Positions 16,772 to 39,210 of a stretch of 47,988 bases of DNA are shown one piece after another. The stretch is from positions 1 to 47,988 of the forward strand of contig JABISF010000073.1 of the NCBI GenBank assembly GCA_018699935.1. Reading direction: 5' to 3'. The notes beneath the pieces are model-generated. The model did no database searches. It was not told where the DNA came from and saw only the letters and a list, made by a program, of their open reading frames with translations. The position numbers and the translations under genes are program-made. This DNA is from Flavobacteriaceae bacterium. Its GTDB lineage: Bacteria > Bacteroidota > Bacteroidia > Flavobacteriales > Flavobacteriaceae. Within the stretch, counting starts at the first letter, position 1. Every line of letters starts with the position of its first letter.

Positions 16772-17854
16772 TTAAGAGTTTAAAATCTTTTCTTGCTGAT
16801 TGATTGATTCTTGGTGGATGGCTTTAAACACACGCAAGATAAATTCTTCCGACAAATTGCGTTCTTGACCTTCCAAAATCATACGTCCCAAAATCTCGTT
16901 CCAACGTTTGTTTTGTAGAACGGCAACATTATTTTCGCGTTTTAATTTTCCGATTTCACTAGAAACTTTCATGCGTTTCCCAAGCGTGTCCAACAAGGTT
17001 TGATCGGCTACATCAATTTGCGCCCGAAGATTGTTGAGTTCGTGTTGGTAGGCCTCCGCGTCGGTGGTTTGCTTACGCACTTTTAAATCTTTCATGATTT
17101 CCACCAAACGAGTGGGGGTTACTTGTTGTGCTGCATCACTCCAAGCATTGTCCGGATCCCAGTGGGATTCAATCATCAAACCGTCAAAGTTTAAATCCAA
17201 AGCAGCTTGCGACACATCAAAAATAAGATCGCGTTTTCCAGCAATGTGCGAGGGATCACAAATCATCGGAAGATCTGGAAATTTATTTTTTACCTCAATA
17301 GCAATCTGCCATTCGGGAATATTTCGGTATTTGGTTTTTTCATAAGTAGAAAATCCACGGTGGATCAATCCTAGTTTTTTGATGTTTGCGGTATACAAAC
17401 GCTCCACACCGCCCAACCACAAAGCCAAGTCAGGGTTGACAGGATTTTTTACCAATACAATTTTGTCTGTTCCTTCCAAAGCATCGGCAATTTCTTGCAT
17501 GATGAATGGACTTACGGTAGAACGCGCCCCAATCCAAAGGATATCGACATCGTGCTCCAAAGCCAATTTCACGTGGTCTTTATTGGCCACTTCTGTTGCC
17601 GTCAACAATCCCGTTTCTTCTTTTACTTTTTTCAACCAACCCAATCCAATGGCACCCACGCCTTCAAACATTCCGGGTCGGGTTCTAGGTTTCCAAATTC
17701 CAGCACGATAGACAGTCACATCGGTGTTTTTTAGCTCGTGTGCAATTTTTAAAACTTGTTCTTCGGTTTCTGCACTACAAGGCCCCCCAATCACAAGAGG
17801 ATGATCTAATCCAAAATCGGTCAGCCATTGGCGCATTTCTTTCTTATTTTCCAT
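16772..17854 (-). CDS. Bifunctional 3-deoxy-7-phosphoheptulonate synthase / chorismate mutase type II
   Basis: The protein has 360 residues. Residues 1 to about 255 are a type I-beta DAHP synthase, joining phosphoenolpyruvate and erythrose 4-phosphate as the first step of the shikimate pathway. Motifs are GGPCSAE, YRAGIWKPRTRPGMFEGVG, VKNPVNPDLALW and ICDPSHIAGKRDL. Residues from about 265 to 350 are an AroQ-type chorismate mutase helix bundle, which makes prephenate. Such C-terminal fusions are known in Bacteroidota such as Porphyromonas, where the mutase domain also mediates feedback inhibition by prephenate. The gene overlaps tyrA by 11 bases and is the fourth structural gene of the attenuated operon. 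It thus supplies the entry and branch-point steps. Confidence 0.95.
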   Translation of the reverse strand: MENKKEMRQWLTDFGLDHPLVIGGPCSAETEEQVLKIAHELKNTDVTVYRAGIWKPRTRPGMFEGVGAIGLGWLKKVKEETGLLTATEVANKDHVKLALEHDVDILWIGARSTVSPFIMQEIADALEGTDKIVLVKNPVNPDLALWLGGVERLYTANIKKLGLIHRGFSTYEKTKYRNIPEWQIAIEVKNKFPDLPMICDPSHIAGKRDLIFDVSQAALDLNFDGLMIESHWDPDNAWSDAAQQVTPTRLVEIMKDLKVRKQTTDAEAYQHELNNLRAQIDVADQTLLDTLGKRMKVSSEIGKLKRENNVAVLQNKRWNEILGRMILEGQERNLSEEFILRVFKAIHQESINQQEKILNS

Positions 17855-18734
17855 GATTAATTATTGATTGATTCGTAATATTATTTTGATTGATTCCTGC
17901 CAAGATTTTTTTGATGGCATTGGTTTTTTTCATTTGTTCAAACAAGCCTTTAAAATCGTCTTGTTCCAATTGTTGTTTGAAGGTTTCCAGATTGGTAATA
18001 TACTCTTTCAACACCTCCAGCACATTGTTTTTATTTTGTTTAAAAATGGGAGTCCACATGGCCGGAGAACTTTTTGCCAAACGAACCGTGGAGGCAAATC
18101 CACTTCCTGCCATCTCAAAAATAGCGCGTTCATCTTCTTCTTTTTCCATCACGGTTTTACCTAACATAAAAGAAGAAATGTGCGACAAATGAGAAACATA
18201 GGCAATGTGTTTGTCGTGCGCTTCGGGATCCATTTCGTTGACATTCATATTCATGTTCCGAAACCACTGTACTGCCCATTCCAACAAATCAGGACGGGTT
18301 TTGGAAGTTTCACACAAAATTTGAGATTGCTCCACAAACAAATCAGGAAAGGCCGCTTTAGGTCCTGAAAACTCTGTTCCTGCGATGGGATGGGTGGCTA
18401 AAAACTGATTTCTTCGGGGGTGCAGTGCTACGGTTTTGCAAATGGCCACCTTGGTAGAGCCCACGTCCATCAACAAGGCATTGTTGTGCATCTGATCCAG
18501 CAGTGCCAACACCTGCTCCAACGCTGCATCTACTGGAATCGCCAAAATGATGACATCCATGGTCGCTACGGCATTTGGATGTAAGGTTTCGGAGACGATT
18601 CCTAAACTTAGGGCTTCCTCCAAATGATTGGGTTGGTGATCGAATCCATACAGCACACAATCTGGGGTGAATTTTTTTGCAGCCAATGCAAAAGACCCTC
18701 CAATTAATCCCAAACCAATGACTCCTATATTCAT
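17844..18734 (-). CDS. tyrA: Prephenate dehydrogenase
   Basis: The enzyme oxidatively decarboxylates prephenate to 4-hydroxyphenylpyruvate with NAD(P)+, the committed step to tyrosine. The 296-residue protein opens with a Rossmann motif (IGVIGLGLIGGSFALAAK). It has the family segments DVGSTKVAIC, THPIAGTEFSGPKAA, the catalytic His region AHDKHIAYVSHLSH and GSGFASTVRLAKSSPAMW. No ACT domain is fused, so feedback must act elsewhere. The start overlaps the aminotransferase stop by 4 bases, which points to translational coupling within the aromatic operon. Confidence 0.95.
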   Translation of the reverse strand: MNIGVIGLGLIGGSFALAAKKFTPDCVLYGFDHQPNHLEEALSLGIVSETLHPNAVATMDVIILAIPVDAALEQVLALLDQMHNNALLMDVGSTKVAICKTVALHPRRNQFLATHPIAGTEFSGPKAAFPDLFVEQSQILCETSKTRPDLLEWAVQWFRNMNMNVNEMDPEAHDKHIAYVSHLSHISSFMLGKTVMEKEEDERAIFEMAGSGFASTVRLAKSSPAMWTPIFKQNKNNVLEVLKEYITNLETFKQQLEQDDFKGLFEQMKKTNAIKKILAGINQNNITNQSIINHGK

Positions 18735-19882
18735 GATTCAAAACGTTTTATGGCTGTTTCAATAGTAGCTTCCGGCACACATAATGAAAAGCGAATATAT
18801 CCCTCTCCTTGACTTCCAAAGATGGTTCCCGGTGTGATAAAAATATGTTTTTCGTAGAGTAGTTGATCGATAAAAGTTTCCGAATCCACGACGCCTTGCG
18901 GTAGTTTTGCCCAGACAAAAAGGCCTACGCTATTGGGGTCGTAAACAGCTCCCATACGATTTGCCAAAACCTCGACCAAACGTCTTCTTTTTTGGTAGAT
19001 GAGATTCAACCCTTCAAACCAATCGTGATCGGCTTTCAGTGCTGCAATCGCCCCTTGTTGAATGCCATAAAACATTCCGGAATCCATATTGCTTTTTACT
19101 TTCAATACCGCCTGAAGGGGGGTTGCGTTTCCGCATAACATACCCACACGCCAGCCGGCCATATTGAAGGATTTGCTCAAGGAATTCAATTCGATGGCAA
19201 CCTCCATAGCCCCGGGTCGGGATAAAATACTTTGCGGTTTTTGGGTTAACACAAAACTGTACGGATTGTCGTTGACCAATAAAATATTTCGGGCTTTGGC
19301 CAAAGCGATCAGTCGATCAAAGGTATCCACGTTTACATCGGTGCCGGTGGGCATATGGGGATAATTCAACCACATGAGTTTGACGCGCGAAGTATCCAAA
19401 GCTTCCAATGCCTCAAAATCGGGTTGCCACTGTTGATCAGCGGTTAAATTATAGTAGACCGGTTCGGCTTCTACCAACCGGGTCACAGAGGCATAAGTGG
19501 GATATCCCGGATTCGGAAGCAGCACTTGATCTCCGGGATTTAGAAAAGCCATAGAAATATGCATAATCCCCTCTTTGGAACCCATCAGCGGTAGGATTTC
19601 GGTGTTGGAATCCAAACCAACTACATAATATTTTTTGTAGAAATTGGCAATGGCAGCCCGCAATTCGGGAAGTCCTTGATAGCCTTGATACATGTGCGCC
19701 TTGGGCTGATGCAGGGATTGTTCCAAGGCTTTTATTACTTCCGGATGGGGTGCCAAGTCGGGGCTGCCCACTCCCATATTGATGATGGGATGCCCTTGCT
19801 GTATGAGTTGGGCTACCTCTCTCAATTTTCGAGAAAAGTAATACTCTTGTACACTCGCCAAACGCTTTGCTGTTGCTGTCAT
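18731..19882 (-). CDS. PLP-dependent aminotransferase of the aromatic operon
   Basis: The 383-residue protein is a class I/II aminotransferase related to the LL-diaminopimelate and methionine/aromatic aminotransferase group. Visible motifs are MGVGSPDLAPHPEV, PLMGSKEGIMHI, LPNPGYPTYASV, LNYPHMPTG, VNDNPYSFV and the Schiff-base Lys in LNSLSKSFNMAGWRVGM. Its place between pheA and tyrA, with 4-base overlaps on both sides, suggests it transaminates phenylpyruvate and 4-hydroxyphenylpyruvate, or prephenate. That role is inferred from context and not from a diagnostic residue. Confidence 0.9.
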   Translation of the reverse strand: MTATAKRLASVQEYYFSRKLREVAQLIQQGHPIINMGVGSPDLAPHPEVIKALEQSLHQPKAHMYQGYQGLPELRAAIANFYKKYYVVGLDSNTEILPLMGSKEGIMHISMAFLNPGDQVLLPNPGYPTYASVTRLVEAEPVYYNLTADQQWQPDFEALEALDTSRVKLMWLNYPHMPTGTDVNVDTFDRLIALAKARNILLVNDNPYSFVLTQKPQSILSRPGAMEVAIELNSLSKSFNMAGWRVGMLCGNATPLQAVLKVKSNMDSGMFYGIQQGAIAALKADHDWFEGLNLIYQKRRRLVEVLANRMGAVYDPNSVGLFVWAKLPQGVVDSETFIDQLLYEKHIFITPGTIFGSQGEGYIRFSLCVPEATIETAIKRFES

Positions 19883-20712
19883 CGGATATGCTGGGCGTAT
19901 TCTCCCAAAATTTTGAATTTAGAAGCCATGATGGCGATCAGTTTACGAGCCTTGTCATAATGTTCAAATTGCTCGAAGGTGACATCCACAAAAAAGGCAT
20001 ATTTCCCGGGAGTTTCTATCACGGGTAGGGATTGAATTTTGGTCAGATTCAACTGGCAATCGCTCATCACGTTTAAAACGGCTGCCAAACTTCCCCTTTG
20101 ATGGTCGAGGATAAATTTTAAAGCCGCTTTATTTATTTTTTCTTGAGGCACTTGTTCTCCCTTTTTTTGGATAATCACAAAACGGGTGACATTGTTTTGA
20201 ATGGTTTGAATGGAAGGCGCCAAAATGGTAAGTCCAAATAATGCGGCGGCCTCTTTACTGGCAATGGCGGCAATCCCTTTGCATTGATCGGCGGCAATAC
20301 GACGGGCTTCATCGGCCGTGTCTTCTGCCTCTACCAAACGGATGTGAGGAAAAGATTGGAAAAAAGTTTTGCACTGCAACAGTGCCATGGCGTGAGAATG
20401 TACTTCCTTGATGTCTGCCATTGTTTGTCCGGGCAAAGCCATCACATTGTGATGAATACGCAAACCGTATTCCCCAACAATTTGTAAATCGTTTTGATCG
20501 ATAAGGGCGTAATTGGGAATGATGGATCCAGCAATCGAATTTTCTATGGCCATCACCGCTTGATCCGCAGTCCCGTCCAAAAGTGCAGCAACGGTGGCGT
20601 CAAAGGTTTCGCACTCCACCAAAGACAAGCGCTCTCCAAAGTAGTGTTGCGCTACCACATGGTGAAAAGAACCTCGGATTCCTTGTATTGCTACTGCTGT
20701 TTTTGTTTCCAT
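19879..20712 (-). CDS. pheA: Prephenate dehydratase
   Basis: The enzyme converts prephenate to phenylpyruvate. With the ATG at 20712 it has 277 residues. An in-frame TTG at 20721 is part of the attenuator T-run and is an unlikely start. The catalytic domain shows IQGIRGSFHH, AIENSIAGS and the signature NVTRFVII. A C-terminal ACT domain follows (RGSLAAVLNVMSDCQLNLTKIQSLPV). The usual Phe-binding ESRP of proteobacterial enzymes reads IQSLP here, so allosteric inhibition may differ. It is the first structural gene of the operon and lies directly after the attenuator. Unlike E. coli PheA, no chorismate mutase is fused; the mutase sits on the DAHP synthase. Confidence 0.95.
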   Translation of the reverse strand: METKTAVAIQGIRGSFHHVVAQHYFGERLSLVECETFDATVAALLDGTADQAVMAIENSIAGSIIPNYALIDQNDLQIVGEYGLRIHHNVMALPGQTMADIKEVHSHAMALLQCKTFFQSFPHIRLVEAEDTADEARRIAADQCKGIAAIASKEAAALFGLTILAPSIQTIQNNVTRFVIIQKKGEQVPQEKINKAALKFILDHQRGSLAAVLNVMSDCQLNLTKIQSLPVIETPGKYAFFVDVTFEQFEHYDKARKLIAIMASKFKILGEYAQHIR

Positions 20713-20719
20713 TATATTC

Positions 20720-20749
20720 AAAAAAAAAGTCCCGATAAATCAGGACTTT
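20720..20749 (-). terminator. Attenuator terminator in front of pheA
   Basis: On the minus strand AAAGTCC (20749-20743) pairs with GGACTTT (20732-20726) around a 10-base loop and runs into nine T (20728-20720). The T-run ends 7 bases before the pheA ATG and 25 bases after the leader stop codon. A terminator in front of the first gene of an operon, and just after a leader ORF, is the mark of attenuation. The 5' arm, extended by one base to AAAGTCCT, can instead pair with AGGACTTT inside the end of the leader ORF (20785-20778). Confidence 0.9.
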
Positions 20750-20773
20750 ATATTTTATATATTTTTTCAAATA

Positions 20774-20842
20774 CTACAAAGTCCTTCCTGCTTCTGGATA
20801 GAAGTAATAAAAGTTGTTGTAGTAAAAGAAAGATGTTTTCAT
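20774..20842 (-). CDS. Phe/Tyr-rich leader peptide of the pheA operon
   Basis: A 22-codon ORF (ATG at 20842, TAG at 20774-20776) starts about 11 bases after the predicted transcript start. Residues 5-15 are Phe-Phe-Tyr-Tyr-Asn-Asn-Phe-Tyr-Tyr-Phe-Tyr, so nine of eleven are aromatic: four Phe and five Tyr. The last sense codons (AGG ACT TTG) contain the antiterminator strand. A ribosome that stalls on the aromatic codons would free AGGACTTT (20785-20778) to pair with the terminator 5' arm, and transcription would continue. A ribosome reaching the stop codon would cover it and let the terminator form. This is the logic of pheL in enterobacteria, but with sensing of both end products of this operon. 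The ORF is too short for routine gene finders. Confidence 0.9.
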   Translation of the reverse strand: MKTSFFYYNNFYYFYPEAGRTL

Positions 20843-20859
20843 TTTTATTAAAATCCAAG

Positions 20860-20890
20860 CAAAAGTAGTATAGCTTTTTTCAAAAACAAA
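20860..20890 (-). promoter_or_regulatory. Promoter of the pheA leader and operon
   Basis: On the minus strand TTTG (20890-20887), 19 bases, then TACTTTTG (20867-20860) is a full match to the Bacteroidota housekeeping promoter. Transcription should start near 20853, leaving about 11 bases before the leader ATG. Confidence 0.75.
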
Positions 20891-20940
20891 CTTTTAATGA
20901 TTTTTTTTTAAACTTGATTCGAAATATTGACCCACATCTT

Positions 20941-22134
20941 ATGAAAAAAATCCTGCTTTTTTGGTTTACTGCAAATCTATTATGCGCTCAAGATTCTCCC
21001 TTTAATCAAGGTGCAATACGTCAAGTCAACTATTTTGAATCCATTCCATTTGAGTTTATTGAGCAAAAAATAATCATCCCTGTTTCTATAGCAGGAGTCA
21101 CGTATCGTTTTATGGTGGATACAGGTGCTCCCAATTTTATTTCTCAAAAAATATTTAATAAAATCAAGCCCGAAGTCGTTGATGAAATACTTATGTCTGA
21201 TGCCAATAATATCGAAATCAAGACTCCCTTGGCAGAAATTGAAGAGTTAAAAATAGGCTCTCTCATTTTCAACAATAGTCCTGTTTTGATTGATGAGAAT
21301 GATGAGAATATATTTTTTAAATGTTGGAAGTTGGATGGTATCATTGGAAGTAACCTCTTGAGAAATTCAATCGTTCAAATCAATTTGGAGGAAAAATTGC
21401 TCTACCTCACCGATCGTATTGACCGTCTTGATTTAAATCATCTAAGGCCCTCCAAAATGATCACTGATTTTGACCGACAAAGCACCCCTTTTGCTTGGAT
21501 TGATATGCAAGAAGGAAAAGGAAAGCATGAGGACTTTGTGATGCTGGATACCGGCATGCATGGGATTTATGATTTGTCCCAATACAGTTATCAACGAATG
21601 AAAGAAAAAGAGCCTTTTCCAGTGCTGGGAATAGCACAAGGAGCTGGTATAATTGGTTCTCATGGAGATGCTGAATTCTCTCAACAATTTAGGGTGCAAT
21701 TGCCTTTTATTCAATTCAATAATTTTATTTTAACCAATGTTGTCAGCATTACAACAGTTTCCAACTACTCCAGAATGGGGGCGGGAATTTTGAAATATGG
21801 AACACTAACGCTTGATTATATTAATGACACCTTTTATTTCGATCCGAAAATAGAAGGTGTTGACCTTGAACATCCATTAATCGGTTTTTCCACCACCTTG
21901 AGCGACAATAAAATCGTGATTGGATTTGTGTGGGATGATTCTTTAAAAGATAAAATTCAATACGGAGATGAAATCCTTCAGATTGACAATCTAAGTTATT
22001 CAGGCATCCCTTTATGCGATCTCATTATAGACGACAAAGAAACTTGGCATGAAAACAAAGAAGCTATTTTTGTTAAAGTTAGATCGACTTCGGGAGAAAT
22101 CATTTCCTTCCACCATCAAAAAAGATGTCCTTGA
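20941..22134 (+). CDS. Secreted retropepsin-like aspartyl protease with a PDZ domain
   Basis: The ATG at 20941 gives 397 residues with a signal peptide ending near CAQ (about residue 17). Two aspartic protease motifs are present: FMVDTGAPNF with Asp60 and FVMLDTGMHGIY with Asp203. Hydrophobic-hydrophobic-Gly elements follow each (DGIIGSNLL near 132; MGAGILKYG later), so one chain seems to hold both lobes. The last part (about 310-390) looks like a PDZ domain: GFVWDDSLKDKIQYGDEILQIDN. The architecture resembles Bacteroidota aspartyl protease family proteins of unknown substrate, probably periplasmic. An in-frame start at 20914 is possible but would place nine residues before the signal peptide. 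It is divergent from the pheA leader. Confidence 0.85.
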   Translation: MKKILLFWFTANLLCAQDSPFNQGAIRQVNYFESIPFEFIEQKIIIPVSIAGVTYRFMVDTGAPNFISQKIFNKIKPEVVDEILMSDANNIEIKTPLAEIEELKIGSLIFNNSPVLIDENDENIFFKCWKLDGIIGSNLLRNSIVQINLEEKLLYLTDRIDRLDLNHLRPSKMITDFDRQSTPFAWIDMQEGKGKHEDFVMLDTGMHGIYDLSQYSYQRMKEKEPFPVLGIAQGAGIIGSHGDAEFSQQFRVQLPFIQFNNFILTNVVSITTVSNYSRMGAGILKYGTLTLDYINDTFYFDPKIEGVDLEHPLIGFSTTLSDNKIVIGFVWDDSLKDKIQYGDEILQIDNLSYSGIPLCDLIIDDKETWHENKEAIFVKVRSTSGEIISFHHQKRCP

Positions 22135-39106: not shown

Positions 39107-39203
39107 TGTTGCTTTACTGGAAGGATTTAACAAGATGTTATTAAAGCAACACTGCTTTAGCAATTTTTTATAGAGGTTGCAATCAGTCAAATCCTTCCTC
39201 GTT
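39107..39203 (-). ncRNA. SAM-II-like riboswitch with expression platform upstream of metK
   Basis: On the minus strand the 5' UTR reads GAGG (39200-39197), GGATTTGACTGATTGCAA, CCTC (39176-39173), TATAAAAAATTGCTAAAGC. This order (P1 arm, AUUU, AUUGCAA, P1 arm, AUAAA, GCUAAA) matches the SAM-II (metA-type) aptamer. Downstream, GTTAAATCCTTCC (39131-39119) can pair over 13 bases (one G-U) with GGAAGGATTTGAC of the aptamer. TGTTGCTTTA (39151-39142) can pair over 10 bases with TAAAGCAACA (39116-39107), which lies 4 bases before the metK ATG. A competing hairpin TAAAGCA-GTGT-TGCTTTA (39159-39142) shares strands with both the aptamer and this helix. SAM binding should therefore favour occlusion of the start codon. 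I assigned the class from memory of the consensus. Confidence 0.8.
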
Positions 39204-39210
39204 ATTGGGA

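Follow-up and report, generated by a model that had tools for sequence, protein, structure and literature searches.

The question raised by this locus is how the short stretch of DNA in front of pheA bears on the operon that pheA begins. From the letters of the window (the whole stretch of 47,988 nt of Flavobacteriaceae DNA analysed here), a sequence-only reading had proposed that a Phe/Tyr leader peptide, a terminator and three alternating RNA pairings make up a complete attenuator before a pheA-tyrA operon. We argue that the element very probably senses the charging of tRNA-Phe and tRNA-Tyr by ribosome-mediated attenuation of transcription. The proposal is upheld by the presence of the leader in nearly all pheA loci of the family, by covariation of the terminator stem, by locus-specific antiterminator pairing, by the spacing of the strands and by leader codons that follow the pathway product. 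At the level of sequence comparison, the anatomy, the conservation, the mutually exclusive pairings and the spacing are established; the 1:2 pairing is the part of the original proposal that found no support.

Organization of the pheA locus

The features to which the text refers, read 5' to 3' along the minus strand, are as follows.

20887 to 20890, minus strand: -33-like promoter element TTTG, read from sequence, 19 nt 5' of the -7 element; the weak part of the promoter
20860 to 20867, minus strand: -7 promoter element TACTTTTG, read from sequence, matching the consensus TAHHTTTG
20774 to 20842, minus strand: leader ORF MKTSFFYYNNFYYFYPEAGRTL with stop TAG, 22 codons, with a Phe/Tyr-rich counterpart in 100 of 102 Flavobacteriaceae pheA loci
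20798 to 20830, minus strand: regulatory codon run FFYYNNFYYFY, read from sequence
20778 to 20785, minus strand: strand 2, antiterminator arm AGGACTTT, within the last sense codons, 12 nt past the last aromatic codon
20740 to 20749, minus strand: strand 3, AAAGTCCT at 20749-20742, common to antiterminator and terminator
20726 to 20735, minus strand: strand 4, 3' arm of the terminator; the 3:4 pairing covaries in relatives
20720 to 20728, minus strand: run of nine T, overlapping the stem end and continuing past it
19879 to 20712, minus strand: pheA, prephenate dehydratase (Pfam PDT, 2.9e-55)
18731 to 19882, minus strand: class I/II aminotransferase (Pfam Aminotran_1_2, 1.5e-63), overlapping pheA by 4 nt
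17844 to 18734, minus strand: tyrA, prephenate dehydrogenase (Pfam PDH_N, 1.5e-31; PDH_C, 9.1e-27), overlapping the aminotransferase gene by 4 nt
16772 to 17854, minus strand: DAHP synthase-chorismate mutase (CM) fusion (Pfam DAHP_synth_1, 6.5e-38; CM_2, 1.3e-21), overlapping tyrA by 11 nt

The promoter that had been described as TTTG-N19-TACTTTTG is indeed found, at 20890-20887 and 20867-20860. TAHHTTTG is the promoter consensus given for F. johnsoniae in PMC6847099, and since the -33 motif is, by the same source, much less evident in that organism, we rate the TTTG element as weak. A motif of the form TAnnTT[TA]G occurs within 70 nt 5' of the leader ATG, at a median distance of 25 nt, in 92 of 99 family loci, as against 11.2 expected from shuffling. 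From the F. johnsoniae consensus we infer that transcription would start near 20855, 13 nt 5' of the leader ATG, and that a terminated leader RNA would be about 135 nt long. Translation of the leader would have to start without the usual ribosome-binding signal: a Shine-Dalgarno core precedes the ORF in only one of 98 leaders. Position -3 is A in 78% of these leaders and position -6 in 57%, a context like that of F. johnsoniae, in which PMC6847099 describes A at both positions as a positive determinant.

The order of the operon is pheA, aminotransferase, tyrA and DAHP synthase/CM, with overlapping genes throughout; pheA itself starts with the ATG at 20712, and an in-frame TTG lies further upstream at 20721. 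Because the upstream neighbour (20914-22134, plus strand) is divergent, the leader terminator can act solely on the pheA operon. Counted as presence within the fetched locus on any strand, the aminotransferase accompanies pheA in 80 of 80 named loci and in 30 of 30 family loci, and tyrA does so in 29 of the latter 30.

Within the window, the 22-codon frame at 20842-20774 carries, as had been claimed, nine Phe/Tyr codons (four Phe, five Tyr) among eleven residues, and the terminator with nine T before pheA (20749-20720) is the sole terminator-like site in 20700-20930, where shuffled sequences give a mean of 0.0. Its 3:4 stem (20749-20726) is predicted at -11.9 kcal/mol; strands 2 and 3 are perfectly complementary, with a duplex of -8.8 kcal/mol, and none of 200 dinucleotide shuffles folds as well as the 144-nt leader as a whole (z -3.57). 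Elsewhere in the window, an Rfam search returned a SAM-II riboswitch aptamer on the minus strand at 39147-39206 (75.3 bits).

Distribution of the element in Bacteroidota

Among 120 Flavobacteriaceae genomes, pheA is present in 102, and the upstream DNA of all 102 pheA loci was read. All three parts of the element (Phe/Tyr leader, terminator plus T run, antiterminator strand of at least five pairs to strand 3) were found in 100 of them, three of which (L012, L053 and L102) were assigned by hand, L012 because its ATG falls beyond the contig end; in the other two (L073 and L075) the element is absent. Every one of the 100 leaders holds at least two Phe and at least two Tyr codons, and 69 hold Trp as well. 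The distance to pheA can be long, about 580 nt in L059 and about 390 nt in L061; the intervening DNA of L059 contains several copies of a repeated block. Among 80 named loci, the best of more than 500 relatives and a set that partially overlaps the 120 genomes, 79 carry the element with an ATG start and all 80 do so once GTG and TTG count as starts; the set includes many Flavobacterium, Winogradskyella, Lacinutrix and Flagellimonas.

A covariance model of the element (R1), run on the 120 family genomes, gave 101 rows at E of 1.4e-4 or below, 97 of them within 800 nt 5' of pheA; the other four lie on a second contig of G048, at a contig end of G116 and in two genomes without pheA (G033 and G042). 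Inspection of 12 weaker R1 matches (E 2.6e-4 to 9.3e-4) revealed no aromatic leader in any of them. Two of the 12 (L299 and L300) lie, in two genera, 5' of the same type of membrane transporter, with a shared GGTCGGTGCT-like strand and terminator, and these are possibly another attenuator. In the window's own genome, runs of F/Y hexacodons number 18 and those of a reversed control pattern 37, so that this search is uninformative on further copies.

Beyond the family, 247 genomes of the phylum were searched. Of these, 215 have pheA, and upstream DNA was read for 66, taken from the best pheA matches; a further 20 were read out of 53 genomes with a PDT match from other families of the order. By an automatic rule, the element was found in 23 of 23 further family loci and in 21 of 26 loci from other orders of the class. 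Among the five missed there, L147 and L148 have the aromatic ORF and failed the stem rule, and L128-L130, all from one genus, have pheA directly 3' of another reading frame. Other families of the window's order gave 7 of 20 loci. None of these seven belongs to the ten loci of family f2, where pheA matches only distantly (E about 1e-24 for the three tested). Other classes of the phylum gave 4 of 17 (L138, L141, L142 and L150). In these four, pheA is 43-44% identical to the window's, as against 33-39% in the 13 other-class loci lacking the element; L158, a locus of the window's own class, has a pheA of 40% identity. A side observation on the same four loci is that their pheA, accompanied by a Phe/Tyr leader, is nearer to that of the window than is the pheA of neighbouring genomes. 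That the leader-positive loci have the closer pheA suggests that leader and gene travel together, whether by descent or by transfer. Strands 2, 3 and 4 can be wholly different between distant lineages and still match one another, as in L184 with GAGCGGTC/AAGACCGCTC/GAGCGGTCTT.

RNA pairing, ribosome position and competing explanations

The three alternating pairings that had been proposed fare unequally. The sequence-only reading had pointed to conserved aromatic ORFs and covarying 2:3 and 3:4 stems in relatives as the check: the ORF is conserved, 3:4 covaries, and 2:3 is supported by permutation in place of a covariation count. When 83 of the 99 family elements are aligned (16 with short leaders or long gaps were omitted), 7 of the 10 pairs of 3:4 vary on both sides, in 51 cells as against 9.2 in shuffles, and none of 500 shuffles reaches the score; sliding the partner out of register lowers the paired cells from 91.4% to 18.6-56.7%, and one outer pair forms in just 53%. 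Since MAFFT placed strand 2 in differing registers, the 2:3 pairing was assessed by permutation rather than by counting columns. The own duplexes of 100 loci total -1092.8 kcal/mol, as compared with a mean of -809.4 (sd 21.2, minimum -889.1) over 2000 permutations of strand 3. With strand 3 fixed and the rest shuffled 100 times, the natural sequence outdoes at least 95 of the shuffles at 91 of the 100 loci; such permutation and shuffle controls overstate independence, related loci sharing ancestry. The antiterminator is more stable than the terminator in only 62 of 100 loci, so that the order in which the strands are synthesized must matter.

The position of strand 2 follows the aromatic codons more closely than the stop codon. 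In the 100 family loci, it starts a median of 11 nt past the last aromatic codon (9-12 nt in 88 loci; range 5-14, sd 1.5), and its start, measured from the end of the stop codon, ranges from -28 to +5 (sd 6.2); over 234 loci, the median distance from the last aromatic codon is 10 nt (quartiles 9 and 11). PMC4833913 puts the reach of a ribosome past the stop codon at up to 12 nt, and we modelled the footprint at 233 loci as extending 10 nt downstream (roughly 9-12 nt covered). In this geometric model, the free fraction of strand 2 is 0.91 with the last aromatic codon in the A site, 0.62 one codon further on, 0.26 two codons on and 0.011 with the ribosome at the stop, where any strand-2 base is free in just 7 of the 233 loci. 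The earlier claim that a strand within the last sense codons would be blocked by a ribosome at the stop and freed by one stalled on aromatic codons is thus reproduced by the model, with the refinement that it is the end of the aromatic run that matters and the place of the stop codon that hardly does. Within the limits of that geometry, this spacing is the best indication that the position of the ribosome is the signal.

On these grounds, the following course of events can be envisaged. RNA polymerase would start near 20855, with a ribosome following on the 22-codon leader. When Phe- or Tyr-tRNA runs short, the ribosome would stall on one of the nine aromatic codons with its leading edge just short of strand 2 (20785-20778), which would then be free to pair with strand 3 once the latter is made; the terminator could not form, and pheA, the aminotransferase, tyrA and DAHP synthase/CM would be transcribed. 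When both tRNAs are charged, the ribosome would reach the stop codon and cover strand 2, the 3:4 terminator would form and transcription would end near 20720. A 1:2 protector would be unnecessary to such a scheme, and in a leader that is not translated strand 2 would be left free, so that read-through would be the default. Translation of the leader, coupling of ribosome and polymerase, a response to Phe and Tyr and the read-through default are features that we infer from the arrangement described above.

The classical alternative is a four-strand attenuator of the pheL/trpL type, in which a 1:2 protector would cause termination by default whenever the leader goes untranslated. We regard it as rather unlikely at this locus. 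Its appeal comes from relatives, where arm 2 is somewhat more paired with upstream leader sequence than expected (mean 0.58, as against 0.46 after shuffling, over 99 family loci); at 16 of the 99, at most one in 30 shuffles reaches the observed pairing, where about 6 loci would be expected to do so, and some lineages may therefore have a 1:2 pairing that the window locus does not. When the whole leader of the window is folded, another hairpin moreover forms near the stop codon and around it, between UACUACAA and UUGUAGUA. On the other side, the UACUACAA strand is altered, as judged by eye, in L009, the nearest of the set by leader, where the pairing is 0.50 as against 0.52 after shuffling. In the window, pairing of arm 2 with the upstream leader amounts to 0.44, as compared with 0.43 once the leader is shuffled, and no 1:2 excess was found there; the duplex originally proposed, TCTATCC with GGAAGGA, contains an A-A mismatch and reaches only -3.7 kcal/mol, to be set beside -8.8 for 2:3 and -11.9 for 3:4. 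For these reasons the 1:2 protector is not supported in the window. What had been said of pheL and trpL accordingly holds for the stalled versus stopped ribosome and lacks support for the protector, and because 1:2 pairing is unsupported, the element is read, from its sequence and folds, as a three-strand switch, which is the better description of the window locus.

Three further explanations dispense with attenuation by the ribosome or add to it. An ordinary terminator beside a chance reading frame would be a natural suspicion in AT-rich DNA, which is rich in T-rich frames, as the genome count of 18 F/Y hexacodon runs and 37 reversed-control runs illustrates; yet the divergent upstream gene sends no transcript that would need stopping, the 2:3 pairing is locus-specific, and the ORF recurs in 100 of 102 pheA loci, to be set against an ATG ORF of 12-40 residues with at least 8 F/Y in 12, which arises in only 4 of 2020 dinucleotide shuffles of the family upstream regions (15 with at least 7 F/Y and 80 with at least 6). 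Conservation contradicts this explanation, which we consider extremely improbable. No more credible is a riboswitch or T-box that controls the terminator while the ORF is incidental: a terminator 5' of a biosynthetic operon would suit it, but the one Rfam family to reach its gathering score anywhere in the window is the SAM-II aptamer at 39147-39206, matches around the leader all stay below threshold (the best, Thr_leader, at 23.4 bits against 55), and what is conserved is the ORF with three short strands. It is also very unlikely, if a little less so, that the leader peptide acts in trans, besides or instead of attenuation in cis. A trans role is reported for a rhizobial Trp leader peptide (PMC7298713); here, the sequence and length of the peptide vary by lineage, whereas aromatic content and strand spacing persist. 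Ribosome-mediated attenuation therefore remains our preferred reading of the element.

Leader codons, known systems and significance

Genomes that lack part of the pathway offer a view of what the leader codons track. Upstream regions of DAHP synthase-CM were examined in 18 pheA-less genomes and in the two without the leader, tyrA being present in 3 of these 20 (G023, G035 and G062), and 17 loci were readable. Fourteen of the 17 come from genomes without pheA and tyrA, although gene absence from draft genomes may be a matter of assembly. Six of the 14 (G027, G033, G054, G073, G074 and G078) carry a Trp-Trp leader that begins with ATG, together with a terminator, exemplified by MTNNNTWWSNSKFYLKR 5' of DAHP synthase-CM in G033; G101 has a single Trp, as judged by eye, and seven have no leader. 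The combination of a Trp-Trp leader and a terminator occurs in none of 1020 shuffles, and WW in none of 121 pheA leaders. The Trp leaders have a weak antiterminator, of 4-9 pairs, at a distance of 1-40 nt from the last Trp codon, so that the spacing rule of the Phe/Tyr leaders fails there. Several of the Trp-Trp loci (L308, L309, L310, L312, L313 and L318) share GGGATTATTG 3' of the stop codon, which appears to be their strand 2. In G042, also without pheA, a Tyr4 leader MKNLNNTYYYYPILTRRIGQ and a terminator lie 5' of a biopterin-dependent aromatic hydroxylase (L291, G042:C4; PF00351, 9.3e-44), of the type that makes Tyr from Phe (Phe hydroxylase). These comparisons support the view that leader codons follow the pathway product: Phe/Tyr with pheA-tyrA, Trp-Trp with DAHP synthase alone and Tyr4 before Phe hydroxylase.

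Other candidate leaders were seen in the window's own genome. A His leader, MNLKNRNHHHLRFSSNEC, starts at 1231 on the reverse complement of L202 (G000:C54), 5' of hisG, with a terminator of -15.9 kcal/mol and an antiterminator duplex of -9.8 kcal/mol. A Trp leader, MNRTIILNNWWNMEV, with a terminator of -14.0 kcal/mol lies 5' of a trpE-like chorismate-binding enzyme (L206:779-826, G000:C1); its fold shows no clear antiterminator, and Rfam gave no match there at E 0.1. No leader was found by eye before ilvD or thrA of that genome.

The enterobacterial pheL/pheA attenuator combines a leader peptide rich in codons for the end product, a terminator before pheA and a mutually exclusive antiterminator. 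The window element is like it (RF01859) in all three respects; it differs in mixing Phe with Tyr codons (joined by Trp in 68 of 98 leaders), in heading an operon that adds tyrA and DAHP synthase, in its Bacteroidota promoter, and in lacking both a supported 1:2 protector and a Shine-Dalgarno sequence. With the trpL, thrL, hisL and ilv leaders it shares the logic of a stalled versus a terminating ribosome; the codons and genes are others, and the protector hairpin is unsupported in the window. Vitreschak 2004, whose abstract reportedly mentions Bacteroidetes/Chlorobi, and Lopatovskaya 2010 may bear on the anatomy of Phe/Tyr leaders in Bacteroidota.

No family of Rfam 15 reaches its gathering score over the element, and membership in RF01859 Phe_leader (22.7 bits) and RF00506 Thr_leader (23.4 bits) was rejected against gathering scores of 55. 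An Rfam search of eight relatives found no T-box or known riboswitch over the element, one of them having Flavo-1 elsewhere; separately, a Flavo-1 RNA was noted near a Flavobacterium pheA locus (L236:3666-3743). Bacteroid-trp RNA (RF01692) is a cis-regulatory candidate of Bacteroidetes (PMC2864571, Table 1), and a role as Trp leader is suggested by its name alone; it matched neither the window nor, at E 0.1, the trpE locus of the same genome.

The sequence-only reading knew of no description of the element in Flavobacteriia, but it has in part been noted before. For Flavobacterium psychrophilum, PMC9723704 (2021) mentions a structured element 5' of pheA, present in other Flavobacteriaceae genera as well and without Rfam hits, which is very probably the element of the window, and it sees "strong clues" that amino-acid operons in that species are attenuated through leader peptides. 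The section concerned leaves the operons with leader peptides unnamed and gives no leader sequence, pairing scheme, geometry, spread beyond the family or codon change. Leader-like short ORFs in 5' UTRs of Bacteroides are mentioned in PMC7366714, and PMC2965389 states that before its own Firmicutes case leader-peptide systems were known in Proteobacteria and Actinobacteria alone. The kind of element is thus known and this one has already been glimpsed, while its anatomy as a Phe/Tyr leader in Bacteroidota, its spacing, its spread and its codon changes were not found in the open-access literature searched.

Taken together, the element may be seen as an aromatic attenuator of three strands, protector-less and on by default, with a spacing set by the ribosome footprint and codons retuned as the pathway shrinks. 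On this reading it would date to an early ancestor within Bacteroidota, given that several families of the class to which the window belongs have it, as do, along with the gene, four genomes of other classes. We offer this joint reading tentatively, leaning slightly against its holding in every part. If it is true, ribosome and RNA polymerase would have to be tightly coupled in a phylum that initiates translation without Shine-Dalgarno sequences. Attenuation by a leader peptide depends on the ribosome keeping pace with RNA polymerase, and a conserved, unannotated pheA attenuator in Flavobacteriaceae and further families of Bacteroidota would offer a direct test of that coupling in the phylum. 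Default read-through when the leader is not translated is a simple prediction that sets the element apart from trpL and pheL, and relatives without pheA and tyrA, with their changed leader codons, amount to a natural codon-swap experiment. The element would also add a new Rfam family and a missing small gene to the annotation of these genomes.
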